From assembly GCF_013377855.1 (NCBI RefSeq), contig NZ_JABXYJ010000004.1:1-64000 (forward strand): a stretch of DNA of 64,000 nucleotides. Direction: 5' to 3'. Under the pieces are notes generated by a model. That model was not told the origin of the DNA, made no database searches, and saw only the letters and a list, made by a program, of their open reading frames with translations. Each line of letters starts with the position of its first letter. Within the stretch, counting starts at the first letter, position 1. Of the stretch, positions 14,383-18,526 are shown piece by piece. This DNA is from Cognatundibacterium oligocarboniphilum. GTDB taxonomy: Bacteria > Pseudomonadota > Gammaproteobacteria > Burkholderiales > Burkholderiaceae_D. The position numbers were made by a program, and so were the translations under genes.

Positions 14383-14419
14383 CATAGCAGCACATCAACC
14401 TGATCCATGCATTCCCTTT

Positions 14420-14455
14420 GGGTATATCTTTCTTGCGAGGATATGCCCTTTTTTT
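14420..14455 (+). terminator. intrinsic terminator after terC
   Basis: GGGTATATC and GATATGCCC form a 9-bp stem (one G-U pair) around an 11-base loop, followed directly by seven T residues. It lies 37 bases past the TerC stop codon. Confidence 0.85.
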
Positions 14456-14573
14456 ATTTTCTTTCTGCAAAGAGTTTGTCGTTTTTCCGTAAAGTTCATA
14501 AGCATCTGCCCAAAATGTATAAGCAAAATCTGGCAAAACCTTACCCTGACGGGTCCAAGCCCTTGATTTGACG

Positions 14574-14579
14574 TATAAT
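14574..14579 (+). promoter_or_regulatory. probable -10 box (TATAAT) of the metH leader
   Basis: A consensus TATAAT places the predicted start of transcription near 14586, immediately before the riboswitch aptamer. I see no good -35 box at 16-18 bases upstream, so the promoter may need an activator, or use a poor -35. The position relative to the aptamer is the main support. Confidence 0.6.
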
Positions 14580-14587
14580 TTACAATC

Positions 14588-14641
14588 CAGCGCCGATTTG
14601 AGATTCAGATTGCGGGCGCATAATAAATGCTGCTAAAAGGA
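14588..14641 (+). ncRNA. SAM-II riboswitch aptamer
   Basis: The segment matches the SAM-II (metA-motif) consensus in order: GCGCC at 14590-14594, GATTT, ATTGC at 14609-14613, the closing GGCGC at 14615-14619, then ATAAAT at 14623-14628 and GCTAAAAGG at 14632-14640. These are the P1 strands, the loop-1 U-rich stretch, and the 3' pseudoknot strand carrying the ligand-contacting residues in the known metagenomic metX structure. It sits about 130 bases before metH, whose product makes the methionine used for SAM. Expected behaviour is that SAM binding lowers metH expression. It is followed four bases later by an intrinsic terminator, so control may be at transcription rather than ribosome access. 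Identification is from sequence memory, not a covariance search. Confidence 0.88.
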
Positions 14642-14644
14642 CCC

Positions 14645-14684
14645 GACCCGATCCGCCTGCATGCATCAGCCGATCGGGTTTTTT
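14645..14684 (+). terminator. intrinsic terminator between SAM-II aptamer and metH (attenuator)
   Basis: CCCGATC at 14647-14653 and GATCGGG at 14672-14678 pair perfectly, extended by A-T and G-U pairs at the base, and are followed by six T residues at 14679-14684. It is positioned between the aptamer and the metH start. The P1 3' strand of the aptamer (CGGG and GGCG at 14613-14618) is complementary to CCCG and CGCC in the 5' part of this hairpin, so a mutually exclusive antiterminator is conceivable; that is inference. Confidence 0.85.
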
Positions 14685-14773
14685 ATTATCAGGACGCAGA
14701 GCGCAGCAGTCTGGATGACTGCGGCGATCATCCGCCGCACCGCTCCCGCCTCCTTGTTGAACGAGTAAACATC

Positions 14774-18526
<3,753 letters not shown>

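Follow-up and report, generated by a model that had tools for sequence, protein, structure and literature searches.

How metH, the gene for B12-dependent methionine synthase, is controlled in this Undibacterium genome is the question raised by the bases directly ahead of it. The original prediction had read these bases as a SAM-II riboswitch joined to an intrinsic terminator. The window is the whole stretch of DNA analysed, 64,000 nucleotides long.

The metH leader and its probable SAM-II class

Direct reading of the letters finds all six conserved SAM-II blocks, in the predicted order, within 14574–14684; the TATAAT box and the hairpin with six T also lie where they had been placed. The features of the leader are listed below, where RF00521 is the Rfam SAM_alpha model, R2 a model described further on and A1 an alignment of 49 sequences.

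14574–14579, plus strand: TATAAT, probable −10 box (letters); start expected a few bases before P1
14587–14642, plus strand: SAM-II aptamer core (RF00521, 32.7 bits; R2, 60.5 bits)
14590–14594, plus strand: P1 5′ strand, GCGCC (letters and alignment A1)
14595–14599, plus strand: GATTT block (letters)
14609–14613, plus strand: ATTGC block (letters)
14610–14613, plus strand: P2 pseudoknot 5′ strand, TTGC, pairing with GC(T)AA
14615–14619, plus strand: P1 3′ strand, GGCGC (letters and alignment A1)
14623–14628, plus strand: ATAAAT block (letters)
14632–14640, plus strand: P2 pseudoknot 3′ strand, GCTAAAAGG (letters and alignment)
14645–14684, plus strand: intrinsic terminator, stem and six T (predicted −16.3 kcal/mol for 14644–14683)
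14645–14653 and 14672–14680, plus strand: terminator outer arms, GACCCGATC and GATCGGGTT (letters)
14679–14684, plus strand: terminator T run, six T (letters)
14654–14661, plus strand: candidate antiterminator 1, putative; loop segment CGCCTGCA, complementary to TGCGGGCG at 14611–14618
14627–14633, plus strand: candidate antiterminator 2, putative; L3/P2 segment ATGCTGC, which would pair with 14659–14666 before the 3′ arm is made
14774–18526, plus strand: metH, B12-dependent methionine synthase, 1250 aa (TIGR02082 and NF007024 above cut-off)

The target is metH, as predicted (TIGR02082, 1712 bits; NF007024, 2118 bits). Its closest named relatives are the metH genes of Undibacterium hunanense and U. 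terreum, with best segments 90% and 87% identical, and the host group is Undibacterium (Oxalobacteraceae, Burkholderiales), so that the betaproteobacterial context is also correct. An open frame running from 14627 into metH was considered as a leader extension of the gene and dropped, the frame listing of the relatives holding no consistent extension. A second terminator-like hairpin, with seven T, lies at 14420–14448 of the window, 3′ of the gene upstream of the riboswitch.

The SAM-II class is borne out by covariance models. In a search of 451 bases, RF00521 matches 14580–14656 at E 1e-5, and the remaining five Rfam matches listed have E values of 0.22–4.6; in a whole-genome search the metH leader is the best SAM_alpha match (E 2e-5). 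This agrees with the prediction by E value but not by score, since 32.7 bits is less than the curated gathering score of 36; a gathering-score Rfam scan of the window gave zero matches reaching the cut-off. The cut-off is strict for this group, because at E ≤ 0.01 the model matches none of 14 control genomes but does match 52 of 98 others, made up of 97 relatives and the genome that holds the window, with only 4 of the 98 above the curated cut-off and 48 of the 52 matching genomes below it. At a loose limit of E ≤ 1, some SAM_alpha match occurs in 10 of the 14 controls, none of them above the cut-off.

Two further models were built: R1 from 49 elements, the window's own included, and R2 from 26 sequences of other genera only, without Undibacterium and without the metK variant described below, all first found by the Rfam model. 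R2 scores the window element at E 6e-15 (38 chosen sources, 234,888 bases). A likeness to SAM-II by chance, in whose favour the score under the Rfam threshold might be cited, is very unlikely, close to negligible, given these two E values and an element kept at the same gene in the right pathway.

Structure adds evidence of uneven weight. The conserved loop and P2-strand letters (GATTTGA, TTGC, AAAT and GCTAAA) are kept, as judged against the Rfam consensus and A1. Covariation, proposed as a check, is present in P1, where two of six pairs change on both sides among the 49 sequences; the outer pair takes six standard types (UG, CG, AU, GC, GU and UA), is unpaired in 19 of the 49, and at the window's own outermost position is A-A. 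The four core pairs of P2, TTGC with GC(T)AA, form in 49/49 sequences and never vary; covariation is therefore silent on P2, which is left with complementarity only, and was dropped as proof of it. The overall covariation score is weak evidence, because a control with the structure slid by +2 scores as high as the structure itself (0.084 versus 0.069; 0.068 versus 0.063 in a second computation). The share of paired cells in A1 is a stronger measure, reaching 88.9% for the structure and no more than 55.8% for any slid version. Where other genera commonly have two P2a pairs, the window and most Undibacterium metH leaders have A-A and G-G. A similar AUUGC...GCUAAAA occurs in the SAM-II RNA used in PMC8494917.

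Compared with the class as represented by RF00521 and by its 2005 description (PMC1273637), the metH leader is alike in block order, P1, the P2 pseudoknot, the promoter before P1, the terminator after P2 and the methionine-pathway gene. It differs in its target, metH, in its score under the cut-off and in a P2a weaker than in most beta elements aligned.

A SAM-II-like fold with another ligand, such as SAH, is an alternative reading. The same genome does hold an SAH riboswitch, and SAH riboswitches have been published for metH in Comamonadaceae. Yet the genome's SAH riboswitch is a separate element, the Rfam SAM-II blocks are kept at metH, the SAH, SAM-V and SAM/SAH Rfam models have no match listed up to E 5 at 14400–14850, and SAM-II RNA is reported to prefer SAM over SAH more than 1000-fold; a different ligand is quite improbable. 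The metH leader is, judging by its sequence, very probably a SAM-II element.

Conservation and possible loss of the element at metH

The element is kept at metH through most of the genus. With the Rfam model at E ≤ 0.01, a match is found in 33 of 42 other genomes of the genus. Altogether 34 Undibacterium metH leaders were gathered, the window's own included, and the DNA after every one of them is metH by tblastn. They give 28 unique leaders (G028, with an off-pattern terminator, left out), across which the core blocks are near-identical and the spacers and loops differ. R2 finds some SAM-II in all 43 genus genomes and a strong metH copy, of at least 56 bits, in the same 34 of them. Among the other nine, metH was found in six and not found in three (G009, G016 and G024). 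Four of these six further leaders have a longer or altered aptamer (L292, L294, L295 and L298), one of which, in G025, scores 27 bits by R2; in the remaining two (L293 and L296) the aptamer is lost or decayed and the terminator is kept.

Outside the genus the element is scattered. Of 80 named metH loci, two lack upstream DNA; an element is present in 13 of the other 78, two of these being Undibacterium; 11 were found at E ≤ 0.001, and the weaker L045 and L054 were read by eye. The other carriers belong to Methyloversatilis, Accumulibacter, Noviherbaspirillum, Herminiimonas and Polynucleobacter. Extra sequence follows P1 in six elements from Herminiimonas, Polynucleobacter, Noviherbaspirillum and MAGs (L037, L041, L045, L052, L054 and L103). 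The printed metH leaders of Massilia, Duganella and Janthinobacterium have a TATAAT box without an aptamer, and those of Herminiimonas fonticola (L036) and Herbaspirillum (L038) have a promoter-like box and a terminator, again without an aptamer. L036 and L038, like L293 and L296 within the genus, are possible relics of a lost riboswitch, and we infer from the pattern that the metH sensor may have been lost stepwise across relatives.

The same decay (L036, L038 and, within the genus, L293 and L296), together with the loss of two P2a pairs in Undibacterium, would fit an aptamer that is itself a degenerate relic without SAM sensing, with only promoter and terminator still acting. Against this, the core blocks stay near-constant in the 28 unique genus leaders while spacers and loops vary, and a model built without the genus still gives the window element 60.5 bits; the odds that the window's copy is such a relic are very low. 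A working SAM-II sensor ahead of metH is the reading followed below.

Probable transcription attenuation ahead of metH

The layout fits transcription attenuation, as predicted, with a strong and conserved predicted terminator placed immediately behind P2, between sensor and metH. Ahead of the sensor, a TATAAT box stands 9–17 bases before GCGCC in 33 of the 34 Undibacterium metH leaders; the box is thus present as claimed, but a clear −35 box is absent and the promoter scan does not list it. Behind the sensor, CGGGTTTT follows within 170 bases of the aptamer start, likewise in 33 of 34. The hairpin had been called perfect, which is true of its outer 9 pairs, followed by six T, but not of its inner part, where there are mismatches. 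The terminator scan does not list the metH-leader hairpin, probably because it allows loops of 3–8 only.

Such a layout is no novelty for the class. The 2005 description (PMC1273637) already places a promoter within a few nucleotides upstream of P1 and puts terminators downstream of P2, an arrangement from which an OFF switch was inferred there; the surprise that the original prediction saw in it mostly falls away. SAM-II RNAs of alpha- and beta-Proteobacteria described in 2007 (PMC2258182) share the terminator platform with the metH leader, in the same bacterial class; unlike the target here, the word metH is absent from the main text of that paper. The SAM-II of Sinorhizobium meliloti metZ (Scheuer et al. 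2022, PMC9373788) has a predicted transcription termination on SAM binding, like the proposal for metH, although the metZ and metA elements of that study belong to an alphaproteobacterium and to other genes. For the Pelagibacter bhmT SAM-II, transcription termination is stated in the literature.

Terminators are common across the wider set. From 125 inputs, one without GCTAAA (L201) and 15 duplicates were removed, leaving 109 leaders, and a simple rule finds a terminator in 85 of them. The rule is crude: it calls G062_C1, L165 and L177 terminator-free, yet a hairpin and T run are visible by eye, and it accepted the wrong hairpin in L149 and L175.

A riboswitch of this kind needs an alternative to the terminator. 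In the fold of the finished leader the predicted terminator forms even without SAM, and the switching must therefore be kinetic. Complementarity between terminator loops and aptamer strands was scored in unique terminator-bearing leaders (60 outside Undibacterium and 25 within) against loops with their bases simply shuffled; because of this, and because the leaders are related to one another, the p-values are rough. Outside Undibacterium the loop is complementary to the P2 3′ strand (GCTAAAGCG), with a mean z of −1.5 and p ≤ 0.05 in 23 of 60 leaders, as in the example ...CCCGATCCGCTTTAG... Within Undibacterium it is complementary to the P1 3′ strand (mean z −1.24; p ≤ 0.05 in 11/25). The antiterminator signal is partial, for the reverse combinations are weak (P2 3′ strand, 1 of 25 in Undibacterium; P1 3′ strand, 8 of 60 in the others). 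For the window itself, the P1 3′ strand against the terminator loop gives −15.0 kcal/mol, with z −2.1 relative to shuffled loops. The fold of the unfinished window transcript favours yet another pairing, in which the loop meets L3 and the first bases of the P2 3′ strand; for a transcript cut at 14668, 5.7 pairs are expected to join L3 to the terminator loop. Each candidate antiterminator pairing would, according to these models, prevent the complete SAM-II aptamer, as a SAM-dependent attenuator needs. The linker base G in TTGCGGGCGC was considered as an antiterminator feature and dropped, being present also in Alcaligenaceae metX leaders in which no terminator was found.

A rival reading gives SAM-II a chiefly translational role, either like that of the Sargasso Sea element or exerted from afar like that of Sinorhizobium metA, with the terminator serving as a constitutive damper. 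In PMC9373788, SAM-II controls a Shine–Dalgarno sequence acting 74 nucleotides downstream and a terminator has an unclear link to SAM; other beta elements also look translational, the AUG of Alcaligenaceae metX following a few bases after GCTAAAGAGGT. At metH, however, the start codon lies 134 bases beyond the aptamer end (14774 versus 14640), so that P2 does not directly cover the metH ribosome site; the terminator falls within the 134 bases that separate AAAAGG from the metH start, and the terminator loops are complementary to aptamer strands. A mainly translational role at metH is unlikely.

Control of metH by a SAM-II riboswitch through transcription attenuation is thus the favoured reading and a highly probable one. 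That SAM binds, that termination follows, that the switch is an OFF switch and that an antiterminator opposes the hairpin are inferred from the leader and its folds, and the sequence of events would be as follows. Transcription would start just before P1. SAM bound to the fresh aptamer would lock P1 and the P2 pseudoknot and keep the aptamer's 3′ strands occupied; the strong hairpin and U run could then form, and the polymerase would halt about 90 bases before the metH start codon. When SAM is lacking, the P1 3′ strand (TGCGGGCG) or the L3/P2 segment would pair with the 5′ half or the loop of the terminator, delaying the hairpin and allowing read-through into metH. The outcome would be that an abundance of the methyl donor SAM turns metH off.

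SAM-II elsewhere in Betaproteobacteria

The original prediction had also regarded a betaproteobacterial host as a surprise for SAM-II. This does not stand: with R1 at E ≤ 0.001, SAM-II is detected in 301 of the 399 genomes searched from the order, which represent 131 of its 158 genera, and beta SAM-II elements with terminators had already been published. The novelty seen in the original prediction comes chiefly from a view of SAM-II that takes in less than has been published.

Genomes reached via named loci tell the same, with an R1 match at E ≤ 0.01 in 27 of 29. We take 28 of these 29 to be betaproteobacteria; 26 of the 28 match, and two Nitrosomonas have no match. The remaining genome is that of a gammaproteobacterium, Litchfieldella, whose weak matches (25.4 and 23.8 bits) are discounted as probably due to chance. 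By tblastn, the genes after 62 Rfam-found elements are 39 metH (34 of them Undibacterium), 11 metZ-like, 4 metX, 2 metK and 6 unassigned. Those after 63 loci found later are 12 metH, 23 metZ-like, 11 metX, 10 metK and 7 unassigned; this later set holds the best-scoring loci, is non-random and overlaps with the 62. The host genome itself has three SAM-II elements, ahead of metH, metK and metX. The third (C1:300585–300657, L207) has extra sequence after P1 and precedes metX of the homoserine O-succinyltransferase type.

Leyn et al. (2014, PMC4239095) reported SAM_alpha from no groups other than Rhizobiales and Rhodobacterales. They describe a "novel" metXZ RNA element, which precedes metXW or, in Methylophilales, Nitrosospira and Thiobacillus, metZ. 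It has six conserved regions, a pseudoknot of regions 1–4 and 2–6, and a terminator. Compared by that text description, its blocks fit SAM-II GCGCC, GATTTG, CTTGC, GGGCGC, AAAT and GCTAAAG. In the present searches metX is preceded by SAM-II in Thauera, Aromatoleum, Herminiimonas, five Alcaligenaceae, Paraburkholderia and Caballeronia, and metZ is so in Methylobacillus, Methylovorus and Nitrosovibrio; these sister elements have a terminator, although some metX copies lack one by the simple rule. Because the described blocks fit, and the genes are the same in the same groups or their relatives, the metXZ element, set against its text description, is very probably SAM-II. The literature examined yielded no paper on a metXZ riboswitch beyond PMC4239095. 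That the 2014 survey reported no SAM-II in this class and named one anew is probably due to the Rfam cut-off.

In five Alcaligenaceae metX leaders (L187, L188, L189, L190 and L193) the last bases of SAM-II are GCTAAAGAGGT (GCTAAAAAGGT in L187), an ATG follows after a few more bases, and the metX ribosome site seems, by its letters, to lie inside P2. Tandem SAM-II elements were seen at L008, L013, L118, L125, L127, L142, L150, L163, L182 and L183/L204, the first copy with a terminator; the second copy often belongs to the metK-like variant. In 7 of the 10 the next feature is a small ORF whose product begins MYDC or MFDC, and at L008, L013, L142 and L204 a putative MATE-type transporter, judged by eye, follows. 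Tandem SAM-II has been published, with 44 cases (PMC9481103); the ORF and transporter context is absent from that paper's section on tandem SAM-II.

The metK elements form a variant. The host copy (C31:324541–324597, L206) lies about 60 bases before metK; the host's SAH riboswitch (C31:348213–348356, above the Rfam cut-off) is on the same contig. The variant differs in having GAGTTAA and in GACAACTTGC with GCTAAAGCGTC, which give three more P2 pairs (GAC/GTC); in the Burkholderia-like genomes read it also has an inserted hairpin. R2, built without metK variants, still gives metK elements 49.2 bits in Methyloversatilis, 38.0 in Janthinobacterium and 35.5 in Massilia, and variants with long insertions score low or match partially (15.5 bits in Trinickia, 13.6 in Paraburkholderia). 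An Rfam scan of 12 metK loci found no family at cut-off save a separate SAH riboswitch; SAM_alpha is weak in three (L141, E 0.1; L002, E 0.37; L202, E 0.8), and apart from these and the SAH riboswitch only matches at chance level were listed. Among 70 sampled metK leaders of the order, including one with almost no upstream DNA (L241), R1 matches 18 at E ≤ 0.01, and 17 of these, when read, belong to the variant type. The eighteenth (L223, in G162) is instead a terminator-bearing SAM-II of the classical kind, directly before one of two metK genes.

Complementarity between the bases after P2 and the metK ribosome site has a mean z of −1.97, with p ≤ 0.05 in 14 of 34 leaders; of 35 leaders taken, G070 was dropped as no start was found, and the starts of G098 and G167 are probably misassigned. 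In the 11 metK leaders that come from the window's family, folding places these bases in the stem of a local hairpin, for example GTCGCAG/CTGCGAC. This modelling suggests that the metK variant is a translational OFF switch, in which the bases after P2 would lie in the local hairpin without SAM and on the metK ribosome site with SAM.

The papers examined gave no report of SAM-II ahead of metK or of metH; a metH mention in PMC2704228 concerns another motif and not SAM-II.

SAM-II is more widespread in the class than the 2014 survey reported, and the metH element is ordinary there; most beta elements seem to be missed because of the Rfam cut-off, which is exceeded in 4 of 98 genomes, against 52 of 98 with a match at E ≤ 0.01. 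The metH element extends the SAM-II target list to B12-dependent methionine synthase. If the reading of the metK variant is true, the SAM-making enzyme would also be under feedback control. That SAM-II is a main and largely overlooked regulator of methionine genes in Betaproteobacteria, with the metXZ element being SAM-II, metH controlled by it and the metK variant hiding the ribosome site, is a likely picture.
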